64,000 nt of DNA from Brachybacterium sp. FME24 (GTDB lineage Bacteria > Actinomycetota > Actinomycetes > Actinomycetales > Dermabacteraceae): the NCBI RefSeq assembly GCF_014897705.1, contig NZ_JABUXV010000012.1, positions 1-64,000 on the forward strand. Reading direction: 5' to 3'. Below the pieces are notes generated by a model. The model was not told the origin of the DNA. It did not search any database and worked only from the letters and a program-made list of their open reading frames with translations. Position numbers and translations under genes: made by a program. Below, one piece after another: positions 37,031 to 41,778 of the stretch. How positions within the stretch are numbered: position 1 is the first letter of the stretch; each line of letters opens with the position of its first letter.

Positions 37031-38440
37031 ATGGTCGACCTGCTCTGGGGGATCGGCGGGATGGCAGGACTCCTGCTGATCGCCGTGGCCCTGTCCAGCA
37101 ACCGTCGGGCGATTCGACTTCGCACCGTGGCGGGAGCGTTCGCCCTGCAGCTGGGGCTGGGCGTCATGGTCCTGTACTGGGGACCCGGTCAATGGGCGCT
37201 CGAGAAGGTGTCCACCGGCTTCCAAGCCGTCATCGACACCTCGAGCGAAGGCATCGCCTTCCTGTTCGGGCCGCTGCTGCCGGCAGAAGGAGAAGGCAGC
37301 ATCTTCGCCCTCCAGGTGCTGCCGGTGATCATCTTCTTCGCCTCGCTGACCGCCGTGCTCTACCACTGGAAGATCCTGCCCAAGTTCGTGGCCCTGCTGG
37401 GCGGCGGCCTGGGCAAGGTGCTCGGCACCGGCCACGCCGAGTCCGTCAACGCCGCCGCCAACATCTTCGTGGGCCAGACCGAGGCGCCGCTGGTGATCCG
37501 CCCCTATATCAAGCGACTCTCGAGATCGGGGCTGTTCGCGGTGATGGTGGGCGGGCTGTCCACGGTGGCCGGGTCGGTGCTCGTGGGCTACTCGCTGCTC
37601 GGCGCGCCCCTGGAGTACCTCATCGCGGCCAGCTTCATGGCCGCCCCGGGCGCCCTGCTGATGGCCAAGATCCTGGTGCCGGAGGACGATCCCGACGCGG
37701 TGGCGCGCGAGGCGGAGCTGGTCGCGGCGAGCAGCACGTCCTCGAAGCGCCGGGGAGCGGGTGCGGACGCCGACGGGTCGAGCGCGGCCGGGGCGGGGAC
37801 GGCTGATGGGGCCACCGTGACCGCTGACGAGGGGGTATCGGCCGGCACGGAGACCACGGACCGGGACGAGTCCACGTCCGCAGCCACCGAGGACGAAGCC
37901 GATGACGAGCTCGAGGAACTGCGGTACAGCAACGTCATCGACGCCGCTGCCGGGGGTGCCGCCGACGGCCTCAGACTCGCCGCGACCGTCGGCGCCATGC
38001 TGCTCGCCTTCATCTCTCTGATCGCGGTGATCAACCTGCTGATCGGTACCGTCGGCGGCTGGTTCGGCGTCGGGGACCTGACCTTCCAGCAGATCCTCGG
38101 GTGGCTGTTCGCACCGGTCATGGCGATGATCGGGGTTCCCTGGGGCGAGGCCGTGAGCTCCGGCAGCTACGTGGGCCAGAAGGTCGTGGTCAACGAGTTC
38201 GTCGCCTTCGCCGGCTTCGGCCCCGAGATCGGCAGCTTCAGCGAGAAGACCGCCGTGATCACCACCTTCGCGCTCACCGGCTTCGCGAACCTCAGCTCGC
38301 TGGGCATCCTGCTGGGCGGCCTCGGCGGCCTGGCCCCGAGCCGCCGCTCCGAGATCGCCCAGCTGGGACTGAAGGCGATCCTCGGCGGCACCCTCGCGAA
38401 CCTCATGAGCGCCGCGATCGCCGGGGTCCTGCTGGTCTGA
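37031..38440 (+). CDS. Concentrative nucleoside transporter (NupC/CNT family)
   Basis: The 469-residue membrane protein should import nucleosides with protons or sodium. Family motifs are GQTEAPLVIRPYIKRLSRS, GYSLLGAPLEYLIAASFMAA and NEFVAFAGF. An Ala/Thr/Glu-rich acidic insert of about 75 residues (about 220-296) interrupts the middle of the protein. I chose the ATG at 37031 for its GAGGTGA Shine-Dalgarno; an in-frame ATG lies at 36998. Confidence 0.9.
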   Translation: MVDLLWGIGGMAGLLLIAVALSSNRRAIRLRTVAGAFALQLGLGVMVLYWGPGQWALEKVSTGFQAVIDTSSEGIAFLFGPLLPAEGEGSIFALQVLPVIIFFASLTAVLYHWKILPKFVALLGGGLGKVLGTGHAESVNAAANIFVGQTEAPLVIRPYIKRLSRSGLFAVMVGGLSTVAGSVLVGYSLLGAPLEYLIAASFMAAPGALLMAKILVPEDDPDAVAREAELVAASSTSSKRRGAGADADGSSAAGAGTADGATVTADEGVSAGTETTDRDESTSAATEDEADDELEELRYSNVIDAAAGGAADGLRLAATVGAMLLAFISLIAVINLLIGTVGGWFGVGDLTFQQILGWLFAPVMAMIGVPWGEAVSSGSYVGQKVVVNEFVAFAGFGPEIGSFSEKTAVITTFALTGFANLSSLGILLGGLGGLAPSRRSEIAQLGLKAILGGTLANLMSAAIAGVLLV

Positions 38441-38452
38441 GCGGTCGCGGCG

Positions 38453-38476
38453 CTCCGGGAGAGAACCCGCCCGGAG
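38453..38476. terminator. Short hairpin between convergent genes
   Basis: CTCCGGG and CCCGGAG form a 7-bp stem 13 bp past the nucleoside transporter stop and before the convergent TenA stop. Moderate evidence only. Confidence 0.4.
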
Positions 38477-38552
38477 TGAACGGGCCGGTGCTGCGTCAGC
38501 GACTCGCCCGAGGCGTGCGGCGAGCATTCCCTTCCACCGACTGGTGCGGGGC

Positions 38553-39215
38553 TCAGCGGGCGCTGTCCTCCAGCGCCTGCTGCCAGAAATCGGTCTCGAG
38601 TCGCGTGGCGGTGCGGAACACCGTGGTCAGTTCCGCGAACCGCTGGGTACTGAGGGATCCCTGCGCCAGAGCGTCCAGATGCTCGACCGCCTCGCGAGCG
38701 CCCCTCTGGAAACCCTCGCTCGCGTACTCGCCGATCCATGCGCGGTACGGATGGTCCGTGTGCTGGGCGAGCCGGGGTGCGAGGCGCTCACCGATCTCGG
38801 CGTACCCGATCGTGCACGGGGCGAGGGCCACGTTCAGCTCCAGCAGGTCGCCGCGCTGCCCGCAGTCCAGCACGTACCGGGTGTACGCGATCGTCGCGAG
38901 CTTCTCGGGGGCGGCCTCGAGACTCGCGCGCTCTATGCCCCACTGCTCGGTCAGGCGCACATGCAGCGCGGTCTCGGACAGGACCGAGGACAGCGCCGAC
39001 GACGACGCCGCGAGCTCGGCCAGGCTGCGCGATTTGTAGGCGGCCAGGGCGTGGGCGCGGGCGAACTGGAGCAGGAACAGATAGTCCTGCACCAGGTAGT
39101 CCTGGAACGCGGGCAGCGGCAGCGTCCCGGCCCCGAGCTGCTCGACGAAACCGTGGCGGGTATAGGCCTCCCAGTCCGGCACGGCCGCCGCTTTGAGATC
39201 CTCGATCAGGCTCAT
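38553..39215 (-). CDS. tenA: TenA-family thiaminase II / aminopyrimidine aminohydrolase
   Basis: The 220-residue helical protein has the family's active-site Cys in LAPCTIGYAEIGERL and the QDYLVQDYLFLLQFARAHAL stretch. TenA hydrolyses aminomethylpyrimidines for thiamine salvage. It overlaps the upstream TenA-like gene by ATGA and is in the TPP riboswitch transcript. Confidence 0.9.
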   Translation of the reverse strand: MSLIEDLKAAAVPDWEAYTRHGFVEQLGAGTLPLPAFQDYLVQDYLFLLQFARAHALAAYKSRSLAELAASSSALSSVLSETALHVRLTEQWGIERASLEAAPEKLATIAYTRYVLDCGQRGDLLELNVALAPCTIGYAEIGERLAPRLAQHTDHPYRAWIGEYASEGFQRGAREAVEHLDALAQGSLSTQRFAELTTVFRTATRLETDFWQQALEDSAR

Positions 39216-39907
39216 CGGGTGCCCCCGCCCTGCTGAGCCGGCGCATGGGCCTGCGTCGCGTTCACGGGGTGCTGGTACGACTGGTCGAAGAAGTCCAGCT
39301 CGAGCTGCACAGTGCGGTCGAAGAACTCCCGCGCCCTCTCAGCGCTCGACGGGCCCACCGCATCGAGCTCGCTGCGCAGGAAGTCCACGAAGCCCACGAA
39401 GCCGGGGTCGTCGTGCAGAGTGATCCACTCGGCGTGCACGAAGTACTCGGGAAGTGGGCGGGGCGCGGCCGCTGCCCACTCCAGGTACAGCCACTCGGTG
39501 ACCAGCAGAACGGCGAGGATCGCCGCGTAGTCGCGCGTCTCGGCGGCATCGTGGAACACGGCGAGGAAGCCGTCGGTCGCAGCCGTGTTCGGGACGCTCT
39601 CGCGCTGGGTCGCGGTGACTCCGAGGGCGTCGAAGGACCGCAGGAAATAGGTGTTCTCGTCCCCGGCGACCTCTCCCACGAACTGCGAGAGCCGCAGACG
39701 CGCCTCGAACGTGTTCGCCGACGCGACCCCGGCCCCGAGCAGCGCCAGGAAGCTGTCGAGGAAGCGATGATCCTGGATCAGGTACCCGGCCATGACGTCG
39801 TCGGCGATCGACCCGTCGTGCAGTTCGTGGACGAAGCGGTGCCCGGTGGCGGACGCCCAGGTGGGGTCGCTGCCCTCACGCAGGGAGCGGGTGAATGACG
39901 TGCTCAT
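39212..39907 (-). CDS. Second TenA-family protein
   Basis: The 231-residue protein has the TenA fold (GHRFVHELHDGSIADDVMAGY, TEWLYLEWA, HAEWITLHDDPGFVGFVDFL). At the place of the TenA active-site Cys it has no Cys, as in the TenA_E group, so the activity may differ from classical thiaminase. Its ATG at 39907 overlaps the 64-codon ORF upstream (ATGA) and follows AGGAGGAG. Confidence 0.85.
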   Translation of the reverse strand: MSTSFTRSLREGSDPTWASATGHRFVHELHDGSIADDVMAGYLIQDHRFLDSFLALLGAGVASANTFEARLRLSQFVGEVAGDENTYFLRSFDALGVTATQRESVPNTAATDGFLAVFHDAAETRDYAAILAVLLVTEWLYLEWAAAAPRPLPEYFVHAEWITLHDDPGFVGFVDFLRSELDAVGPSSAERAREFFDRTVQLELDFFDQSYQHPVNATQAHAPAQQGGGTR

Positions 39908-40098
39908 GGGGAGCTCTCCTCCTCGGTCGGTGACCCGGATGCGTCTCTCGCAGCCGGAACGACGTGGGGCCCGCCGACGAGACGAGCACGCTCGAGAAGC
40001 CATGCCGTGTGGGCATGACGGTGTGAGGAGGTGCAGGCATGACGGTGCATGACGGTGCAGTGTGGCGTGATGGTGCGAGCAGTGCGACGCTCATCCAT
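39904..40098 (-). CDS. Putative 64-residue ORF coupled to a TPP riboswitch
   Basis: The ORF begins MDERRTARTITPHCTVMHRH and is rich in His, Cys and Thr. Its ATG is 5 nt after GGAGGG, which is the conserved 3' end of the TPP aptamer, so ligand binding would hide its Shine-Dalgarno. Its TGA overlaps the first TenA ATG as ATGA. Both junctions argue for real translation. Against it: third-position GC is about 67 percent, lower than expected in this genome, and I know no homolog. It may be a coupling peptide whose sequence matters little. Confidence 0.5.
   Translation of the reverse strand: MDERRTARTITPHCTVMHRHACTSSHRHAHTAWLLERARLVGGPHVVPAARDASGSPTEEESSP
40013..40057. repeat. Short direct repeats in the riboswitch leader
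   Basis: CATGACGGTG occurs at 40014, 40038 and 40048 inside the 64-codon ORF. The copies supply its repeated His/Met-containing stretch. They suggest local slippage. Confidence 0.6.
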
Positions 40099-40172
40099 GA
40101 CATCCCTCCGCGAGTGTGAGCTCGATCAGGTTCGGCGGGTGTGTTCTCAGCCCCGATGGGGCACCCCGTGTC
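40099..40172 (-). ncRNA. TPP riboswitch (THI element)
   Basis: On the minus strand the conserved blocks appear in order: GGGGTGC, GGGGCTGAGA, ACACACCCG, CCGAACCTGATC and GCGGAGGGA, with GACA and TGTC closing P1. Direct control of the downstream TenA genes fits. No intrinsic terminator is seen; the overlap of GGAGGG with a Shine-Dalgarno suggests translational control. Confidence 0.95.
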
Positions 40173-40246
40173 GTGGTGAGACCGTATCGCGCCCGTCCCG
40201 GTATCCGAAACGGTGTCCGCCGTTGGCACAGGTTCCGGCTCAGCCC

Positions 40247-40309
40247 GGCTGCCCGCGGGGAGCGCGACGCCTCGCCGCCGGGCTGCCCGCGGGGAGCGCG
40301 ACGCCTCGC
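40247..40309. repeat. 29-bp perfect direct repeat
   Basis: A 29-bp unit starting GGCTGCCCGCGGGGAGCGCG is exact at 40247-40275 and 40281-40309, separated by 5 bp. It lies upstream of the riboswitch, where its promoter should be. Confidence 0.9.
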
Positions 40310-40349
40310 GGCCCGGCTGGAATGCTGCTCGAGAGCGTCGTCGAAGGCC

Positions 40350-40402
40350 GTTGTGACCCTGCGCAGGTTTTGTGAGTGGCAAGACCTGCGCATGGTCACA
40401 AC
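40350..40402. repeat. Palindromic element, copy 1
   Basis: GTTGTGACC-C-TGCGCAGGT pairs with ACCTGCGCA-T-GGTCACAAC: 18 of 19 positions match around a 15-nt loop. It is the better-preserved copy of the 53-nt element. Confidence 0.9.
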
Positions 40403-40511
40403 AGCGCGCGAAGGTGGCAGCGGGGGCGCGCGCATCGCGGATGAGGAGGGTCTGCCCCGGGGTGCGGCTCTTAGGGTGGACTACTGCTCAAAGGCCGCCT
40501 CGTCGACGGGC

Positions 40512-40564
40512 GTTGTGACCTTGCGCAGGCTTTGCGAGCGGCAAGACGTGCGTATGGTCGCAAT
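40512..40564. repeat. Palindromic element, copy 2
   Basis: The same 53-nt element 162 bp downstream of copy 1. Three of its changes from a perfect stem leave G-U wobbles in RNA, two or three are true mismatches. Similarity extends about 25 bp on each side. Confidence 0.88.
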
Positions 40565-40662
40565 GGTGCGCGGTGGTGGCAGGTGAGGGGCGCGGGTGGC
40601 AGCTGAGGCGGGCCCTGCCCCGGGTGGTCGTGCCCCGGGGCGGGGCCCTTCCAGAGTCTGCG

Positions 40663-41778
40663 TCAGAGGGTGGTGGTGAAGGGATCGAAGTCGGCGGGCA
40701 TGGGCTCGACCTCGGCGAAGGTGGAGTTCACCTCGACGATCGAGCCCTCGTCGATGGCTGTCTCGATGGCGACCATGATGTCCAGGACGTGCGCGGCGAT
40801 CTCGCCCTGCGCACGGTGGGGGACACCGGCGCGGATCGCCCGTGCCATCTCCAGCACGCCCAGGCCGCGGCCGGTGGTGGCGCCGGTGGCCGGGACCGGG
40901 GTCGGCTCGTCGCCGCGGTAGACGGTCAGCGCCGAGTCGCCGTCGAAGACGTTGGGGTCGGGGAAGGCGAGCGTGGCGTCGGTGCCGTAGACCTCGACGA
41001 AGCCGGCCCGCTTGTGGGGGGAGTCGAAGCTCAGCAGCACGGTCGCGTTCTGGCCCGAGGCGAAGCGCAGCAGCGCCGAGACCTGCGTGGGCACGGTGAC
41101 GTCGAAGACCTCGCCGGCCTTCGGGCCCGAGCCGATGGTGCGCTGCTCGCGCGCCTTGGAACCGGCGGCGGAGACGCTCGTGACCGGACCGAGGGCGAGC
41201 ACCAGGGTGGTCGCGTAGTAGGGCGCGATGTCGTACAGCGGCCCCGCCCCCTCCTGGAAGAGGAACGCCGGGTTGGGGTGCCAGTCCTCCGGGCCCGGGG
41301 TCTGGAACAGCGTCAGCGCACTGGCGGGGGTGCCGATCGTGCCGTCGCGCAGAGTGCGCAGGGCCGTCTGGATACCGGCGCCGAGCACCGTGTCCGGGGC
41401 GCCGCCCACGCGCACGCCCGCGGCGTCGGCCGCCTCGAGCAGGGTCTTCGCGTCGGCCGGATCGGTGGTGATCGGCTTCTCGGTCCACACGTGCTTGCCG
41501 GCGGCGACGATGGCCTGGGAGATCTCGGCGTGCGCGGTGGGGATCGTCAGGTTGATGACGATCTCGACCTCGGGGTGATCCAGCACGTCCTGCGTGGTGC
41601 CGGAGGCGGGGACGGAGAACTCCTCGGCGCGCTTCGCGGCGGCCTCGGGGAACAGGTCGCCGATGATGTGCACGGCGATGTCCGGGAAGGACGTCAGGTT
41701 CTCGAGATACTGACCGGAGATGGTTCCGGCGCCGATGATGCCGACGCCGACGGGGCCAGAGGAGTTCTGGGAGTTCAC
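40663..41778 (-). CDS. Gfo/Idh/MocA family oxidoreductase
   Basis: The 371-residue enzyme has the Rossmann motif VGIIGAGTISG (residues about 12-22) and the family's EKPITTDPADA. A substrate-domain motif YDIAPYYAT carries the usual catalytic region. It lies 255 bp downstream of two sugar permeases on the same strand and probably processes the imported sugar. The substrate is unknown. Confidence 0.9.
   Translation of the reverse strand: MNSQNSSGPVGVGIIGAGTISGQYLENLTSFPDIAVHIIGDLFPEAAAKRAEEFSVPASGTTQDVLDHPEVEIVINLTIPTAHAEISQAIVAAGKHVWTEKPITTDPADAKTLLEAADAAGVRVGGAPDTVLGAGIQTALRTLRDGTIGTPASALTLFQTPGPEDWHPNPAFLFQEGAGPLYDIAPYYATTLVLALGPVTSVSAAGSKAREQRTIGSGPKAGEVFDVTVPTQVSALLRFASGQNATVLLSFDSPHKRAGFVEVYGTDATLAFPDPNVFDGDSALTVYRGDEPTPVPATGATTGRGLGVLEMARAIRAGVPHRAQGEIAAHVLDIMVAIETAIDEGSIVEVNSTFAEVEPMPADFDPFTTTL

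Follow-up and report, generated by a model that had tools for sequence, protein, structure and literature searches.

The Shine-Dalgarno (SD) sequence within a TPP riboswitch aptamer of Brachybacterium sp. FME24 probably serves as a ligand-controlled entry site for ribosomes, and the short open reading frame (ORF) behind it appears to be a minicistron, kept for its frame alone, that would relay ribosomes to the TenA gene tenA1 by termination–reinitiation. We base this reading on a comparison of sequences among related genomes. The locus lies in a window of 64,000 nucleotides (contig NZ_JABUXV010000012.1, positions 1 to 64,000), where the frame of the leader ORF stays open in 44–47% of dinucleotide shuffles; multiplied by a 1-in-3 phase, this openness gives a chance of about 0.15 (some 1 in 7) for the arrangement. 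Because of this chance level the window by itself proves little, and the case rests on its relatives.

Anatomy of the aptamer, leader and tenA genes

The features of the locus are given below in 5′ to 3′ order.

40181–40186, minus strand: possible −10 element TACGGT, with TANNNT kept upstream of tenA1 aptamers
40086–40178, minus strand: TPP riboswitch aptamer (THI element), full-length match to RF00059
40104–40109, minus strand: GGAGGG within the aptamer, placed as the SD of the leader ORF, with AGG paired in P4
39904–40098, minus strand: leader ORF of 64 codons, ATG at 40098–40096 and TGA at 39906–39904, the latter inside the ATGA of tenA1
40007–40084, minus strand: C-rich, G-poor, rut-like stretch inside the leader ORF (C 0.49, G 0.14)
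39934–39959, minus strand: hairpin (T)CCGG-c-TGCG-AGAGA-CGCA-t-CCGG(G) toward the 3′ end of the leader, formed in four relay leaders
39916–39924, minus strand: GAGGAGGAG, the SD of tenA1 itself, predicted by folding to be mostly paired with leader sequence
39212–39907, minus strand: tenA1, TENA/THI-4 family, 231 amino acids (PF03070, 73.1 bits)
38553–39215, minus strand: tenA2, TENA/THI-4 family (PF03070, 173.9 bits)

The 3′ end of the aptamer has the sequence CGGAGGGATGTCATGGATGAGC (minus strand). The GGAGGG (40109–40104) is followed after 5 nt by the leader ATG at 40098, and the leader stop overlaps the start of tenA1 (ATG 39907) as ATGA, an overlap that is repeated where tenA1 ends and tenA2 begins. 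An earlier note on this DNA had described the GGAGGG at the aptamer 3′ end lying 5 nt ahead of an ATG, and a 64-codon frame that stops on the TenA ATG; the coordinates agree with it on both points, and its anatomy of aptamer, leader and tenA1 is confirmed as correct. The two genes are tandem TenA paralogs, tenA2 with an APCTIGY motif and tenA1 with a TEWLYLEW motif, marks of the TenA_C and TenA_E types, respectively. An imperfect palindrome, some 53 bases long, occurs twice (40350–40402 and 40512–40564) in the interval that separates the riboswitch from the oxidoreductase gene next to it, with the pattern GTTGTGACC..TGCGCAGG..GGCAAGAC.TGCG.ATGGTC.CAA.

The match to RF00059 scores 65.1 bits, above the gathering threshold of 54.3, as expected in sequence and structure of a member of the TPP family. 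In the predicted fold, P4 pairs CCU with the AGG of GGAGGG, and an extended P1 reaches UGUCAUGG; since this extension covers UGUC and UGG, the leader start codon would lie inside P1. The minimum free energy of the aptamer is ordinary when compared with shuffles (z 0.28), and support for the predicted fold comes from the family model, not from folding energy. Likewise, shuffles match the stability of the fold over the SD region of tenA1 (z 0.31), and for this reason a special fold masking that SD, although predicted, was demoted to a supporting detail. The loop of the 39934–39959 hairpin, AGAGA in the window, is AGAGC in one relative (G024), and no T-run stands behind the hairpin. An intrinsic terminator platform was rejected, as our scan of 38000–41000, which is blind to hairpins without a T-run, returned no terminator-like site.

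Leader frames across Brachybacterium and beyond

Searching 38 genomes of the genus with tenA1 gave 27 genomes with a match at E 0.001 or better. We compared the 11 loci, the window's own included, that matched at 2.2e-49 or better; the other 16 matches were weak (24–35% identity), comparable to tenA2 itself (25%). In the window locus (G000) and three relatives (G001, G015 and G024), an ATG 5 bases past GGAGGG opens 64, 100, 44 and 49 codons, respectively, and each of these leaders ends exactly at the tenA1 start (position +4), through TTGA in G024 and ATGA in the other three. The sister genomes G006 and G017 have an ATG 8 bases past GAAGGG, and the 67 codons behind it stop 6 nt short of tenA1 (position −6). 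Four further loci (G005, G013, G011 and G034) are without a leader, and here tenA1 itself begins 9 nt past the same GGAGGG; we refer to loci with and without a leader as relay and direct forms. The last locus, in the distant G032, has a spaced aptamer and a tenA, but a scan of 60 positions from the aptamer motif met no ATG, GTG or TTG.

At all six tenA1 loci that combine a spaced aptamer with an SD-spaced ATG, the frame is open and ends at +4 (four loci) or −6 (two), a pattern in line with the conservation of the frame and its ends that the earlier note had named as a check. Read from the sequence, a ribosome setting out from the first SD-spaced ATG would make TenA or stop at the TenA start in 10 of 10 non-distant loci, and none of these ten joins an intact riboswitch and TenA to a broken ORF, the combination named beforehand as evidence against such a scheme. 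The nearest case is G018, in which the aptamer is kept, the frame stops after 8 codons, tenA2 lies 281 nt from that start codon and tenA1 seems to have been lost. Behind this aptamer (L195, G018:C78:78463-80200), tenA1 is apparently reduced to a 17-codon remnant, MPPSFTDRLLSPDGAQR, ending ATGA on tenA2; this remnant may be a decayed gene turned minicistron.

Counted once per lineage, four of the five tenA1 lineages end at +4 (p 0.004 under the shuffle null, p 0.02 when a second ATG, present in G000, G001 and G024, is also allowed), and across 15 leaders, comprising 5 of tenA1, 8 of short-chain dehydrogenase (SDR) genes, 1 of thiD and G018 (a failure), +4 ends occur in 8 against 2.7 expected (p 0.002, or p 0.005 allowing both ATGs); these p values assume independent leaders and, as the leaders are partly homologous, are rough. 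The counts omit G017 (the sister of G006, with equal leader length), L132 (the same leader as L115), L133 (the same genome as L132), L010 and L012 (without an SD-spaced ATG) and, because its ATG abuts GGAGGG, a thiD leader of 30 codons ending ATGA in G202 (L218). The second ATG lies four bases on and serves frame +1; in five of the six leaders, the window's included, this frame is no less open than the relay frame, reaching the tenA1 start and running past it. In all six, frame +2 meets an early stop.

All 10 non-distant tenA1 loci carry the pattern TANNNT ahead of CACGGGG, starting 16 nt upstream in the six relay loci and 14 nt upstream in the four direct ones, against a chance of about 0.003 per five-position window, and in the distant G032 it lies 18 nt ahead of the corresponding CAGGGGA. 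Because of this constant placement, the transcript probably starts at about the aptamer, with the leader ORF as its first cistron. A sigma-70 consensus scan of 38000–41000 found no promoter-like site.

The wider set of aptamers shows how the leader form sits among others. TPP matches numbered 146 over the 38 genomes, of which 144 were read, the match of G035 and one of the four of G036 being left out. By a crude rule, the 134 genus aptamers (the window's included, with the remaining 10 tenA1 loci examined apart from these) divide into 34 with an ORF of at least 180 codons at SD spacing, 7 of these 'direct' ORFs starting with GTG, 73 with no start at SD spacing, 15 with a short ORF and 12 with no recognised motif. 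Most therefore have neither a long nor a short ORF at SD spacing. The 15 short ORFs are that of the window, ten before an SDR operon, two early-broken thiD frames, a frame from a GTG that is open by chance, and that of G018. Behind the aptamer, thiD starts with GTG at L166 (G027) and L168 (G028), its frame stopping after 4 codons in the first and shifting after about 22 in the second; these breaks may be errors, because the assemblies are less complete (88% and 85%).

In several Brachybacterium genomes the SDR gene is found behind a TPP riboswitch, at L103, L106, L115, L132, L133, L164, L173, L191, L054 and L065 (aptamer plus about 1.6 kb). Its leaders end at +4 in L103, L191 and L115/L132 and not in L106, L164, L173, L054 or L065; with three of the eight counted, this is near chance, and we set the SDR leaders aside as a second proof, since they are not strong evidence alone. 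The SDR gene sits directly on the aptamer in G516 (L229). The gene that follows it in Brachybacterium is one we take to encode a flavin-dependent monooxygenase, both names coming from recognised motifs, and the operon is possibly part of an unstudied thiamine-related pathway.

In a tree of 19 TenA proteins, eight Brachybacterium genes form one clade (98/96), inside which the direct group of G005, G013, G011 and G034 (94/93) stands beside relay genes. The TenA proteins of G006 and G017 fall outside this clade, at an unresolved fork, and for that reason the relay may predate the clade or may have had several origins. Direct placement of tenA on the aptamer start also occurs in Leekyejoonella (L029), which lies outside the Brachybacterium clade, and in Corynebacterium (L023, L024 and L026). 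A 31-codon leader ends TTGA on thiD in Gulosibacter sp. 10, and thiD is direct on the aptamer in three Corynebacterium (L015, L016 and L018). Gulosibacter chungangensis (L012) has an aptamer and a tenA with no SD-spaced leader start, an ATG abutting GGAGGG opening 20 codons, and Corynebacterium J010B-136 (L010) has no SD-spaced leader start ahead of thiD. Pattern scans beyond the genus gave few loci, in 9 of 396, 5 of 394 and 10 of 326 genomes (Brachybacterium included). The hits L228–L231, L237 and L238, outside Brachybacterium, start a long ORF directly, as judged by eye and without an Rfam score; that of G202 is the 30-codon thiD leader described above, and the hit in G144 (L226) had no aptamer-like context.

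Reading phase, peptide and alternative explanations

The spans from leader start to tenA1 start are 191, 299, 131 and 146 nt in G000, G001, G015 and G024, all of them 2 mod 3. These four leaders have their first bases and a 3′ part in common; the gaps between pairs of them are mostly not multiples of three, whereas their net sums are, as with gaps of 1, 43, 22, 43 and 1 against 2, which net to 108. The reading phase is kept despite these insertions and deletions. The peptides, in contrast, range from 44 to 100 amino acids without a conserved body, their His/Cys-rich make-up is not kept, and the four ending at +4 begin MDER (three) or MAEH. Codon-position GC is 0.68/0.62/0.68 in the window leader versus 0.70/0.46/0.90 in tenA1; in the other tenA1 leaders it is 0.66–0.81 at third positions and high at second positions. 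The leaders of G006 and G017 differ by five nonsynonymous changes and one synonymous change, and the window peptide matches no Pfam family. Neither amino-acid conservation nor coding-like codon positions, by which a conserved small protein would be recognised, was found in the leader; such a picture is expected if only phase and stop position have been under selection.

We considered whether the C-rich RNA of the leader could explain its presence. At 40007–40084, C exceeds G by 27 of 78, a value reached by 5 of 127573 stretches of 78 nt in the window (outside the leader, both strands). Over 78 nt, C minus G is 0.35, 0.27, 0.35 and 0.36 in G000, G001, G006 and G017, values that reach at least the 99.7th percentile of the stretches sampled from the window, with no marked C excess in G015 (0.08), G024 (0.14) or the Gulosibacter leader (−0.01). 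The leader might be translated to block Rho, such that an untranslated C-rich leader would lead to termination before tenA1, the ATGA would reflect the usual gene spacing and tenA1 would use its own SD. The C excess of the four longer leaders and the good SD of tenA1 would fit this explanation, and there is a parallel in M. tuberculosis, where the Mbox of the pe20 operon controls a small uORF with Rho-dependent termination, according to the accessible text of PMC12810186. However, the shortest tenA1 relay leaders (G015 and G024) and the Gulosibacter leader end exactly at +4 without a marked C excess, and shielding from Rho would not require a stop on the start codon; moreover, a series of stop positions in ppe2 was taken by its authors as not reflecting Rho (PMC11260477, accessible text). 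We regard this explanation as unlikely, and see in Rho a possible second layer in the longer leaders, not the cause of the exact end point.

Slightly less likely still is that the leader is a chance open frame in a GC-rich spacer, with tenA1 controlled otherwise, for example by its own SD or an unseen structure. Shuffled tenA1 leaders do stay open in 38–69% of cases, some relatives are without a leader start, G018 stops early, and the lack of amino-acid conservation and of a tenA1-like codon-position pattern would be expected of such a frame. A chance frame is harder to reconcile with the end points of the five tenA1 lineages (precisely +4 in four of them, −6 in the remaining one), with leader indels that net to multiples of three, with a leader start placed at the site from which related genes themselves start, and with a region (38000–41000) holding no terminator-like site.

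The small His/Cys-rich peptide that the earlier note had singled out as the product is not supported by the evidence above: a functional peptide, such as a regulator that binds metal or nucleic acid and is expressed together with TenA, would profit from the plausible start signal, the operon position and the MDER or MAEH beginnings, but with sequence and length unconserved, no Pfam family for the window peptide, codon positions unlike those of tenA1, mostly nonsynonymous change between G006 and G017 and no leader at all in the direct group, we rejected it as very improbable.

A proposed ligand-gated relay and its relation to known systems

We propose that a direct-occlusion TPP riboswitch gates ribosome entry at one fixed start, formed by the GGAGGG at the aptamer 3′ end and the ATG behind it. 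With TPP bound, P4 and P1 would hide the SD and start codon, as the fold and the family model suggest for this RNA. Without TPP, a ribosome would start at the leader ATG, translate a leader of unconserved sequence, stop on the ATGA and re-initiate at tenA1, opening the SD of tenA1 en route; tenA1 would in turn hand ribosomes to tenA2 through the like ATGA overlap. In relatives without a leader, tenA1 would start at the aptamer site, the relay and direct forms being two solutions for one control point. In longer leaders with rut-like C-rich RNA, translation of the leader may in addition protect the transcript from Rho. The sequences themselves show the anatomy, the kept end points and the reading phase kept despite indels; the ligand response, translation, reinitiation and the part played by Rho are what we infer from the comparison. 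Several results speak against the proposal: GC-rich leaders stay open by chance about half the time, frame +1 is also open in five of six leaders, tenA1 has its own SD under a fold of ordinary stability, the SDR leaders end at +4 at a rate near chance, the G018 frame stops early, Gulosibacter chungangensis and G032 have a spaced aptamer and tenA with no SD-spaced leader start, and most TPP aptamers of the genus have neither form of ORF at SD spacing by the crude rule. Ligand control at the leader, with ATGA coupling to TenA, had already been suggested in the earlier note; the kept frame and end points lend support to that part of the suggestion and not to its emphasis on the peptide.

A broader proposal, which we hold tentatively and with a little less than even confidence, is that a ligand-gated fixed start may be reached either by starting the target gene directly, whether or not its N-terminus is extended, or through a sequence-neutral minicistron selected for phase and stop only, and that such minicistrons originated repeatedly behind TPP riboswitches, perhaps twice for tenA1, for thiD in Gulosibacter and perhaps for the SDR operon.

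The nearest known parallel is ppe2 of Mycobacterium tuberculosis, which, in the accessible text of PMC11260477, is under a B12 riboswitch with a uORF, uPPE2, in AUGA overlap with ppe2, the translational OFF switch acting first on the uORF. Expression of ppe2 falls severely without uPPE2 translation, mainly through termination–reinitiation as tested by mutation; early stops lowered expression gradually and late stops more, and the authors concluded that Rho does not account for the loss (PMC11260477). The order of riboswitch and uORF and the stop/start ATGA are as in the window locus. Differences are that ppe2 has B12 as ligand and another aptamer, that the SD region of its uORF is masked by an anti-TIR stem and that ppe2 is without an SD (PMC11260477), whereas in the window locus the SD forms part of the aptamer core, tenA1 comes with an SD of its own, and relatives occur in relay and direct forms. 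The AUGA overlap of a ppe2-type relay is present in the window, and frame and end point, which we added as a criterion of our own, are maintained in relatives with the exception of G018. The ppe2 relay rests on experiments; the window locus, read from its sequence, looks as if it works in the same way, as a probable and not a proven member.

The term TPP is absent from the accessible text on ppe2 (PMC11260477), PMC6429828 treats uORFs and TPP riboswitches apart in its accessible text, and among the open-licence papers listed, judged by their titles and the beginnings of their abstracts, we found no bacterial TPP riboswitch with a small, leader or upstream ORF. The earlier note's statement that no such arrangement was known for TPP riboswitches holds to this extent; because the same architecture has been shown by mutation for the B12 riboswitch of ppe2 (PMC11260477, accessible text), the arrangement is less unprecedented than had been thought. 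The pe20 Mbox differs in sensing Mg2+ and in the high conservation of its uORF, rv1805A, and the words overlap, AUGA and translational coupling are absent from the accessible text (PMC12810186).

In direct translation attenuation by TPP (PMC2258182), as here, the purine-rich 3′ end of the aptamer is the ribosome binding site. The window locus has an SD in the conserved aptamer core and a start codon at SD spacing, as that mode of control implies; there, however, the binding site belongs to the regulated gene, whereas in the window it starts the 64-codon leader, a minicistron standing between. The started ORF is the main gene in G005, G013, G011 and G034, and both forms are found within Brachybacterium. 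Ordinary operon genes with NTGA overlaps resemble the tenA1/tenA2 junction (ATGA) and differ from the leader in that the latter is apparently selected for its frame only.

With selection acting on the frame but not on the peptide, such leaders would amount to natural relay cistrons. If the proposal is true, TPP riboswitches join a short list of those with a throw-away ORF as first target, and the annotation of long TPP leaders in high-GC bacteria needs revisiting, since ignoring the leader frame would lose or mistake the control. Related genes would then offer a natural series of 0, 44, 49, 64, 67 and 100 codons for measuring how a signal is relayed by termination–reinitiation, and for measuring how selection can act on nothing but the frame of a regulatory ORF.
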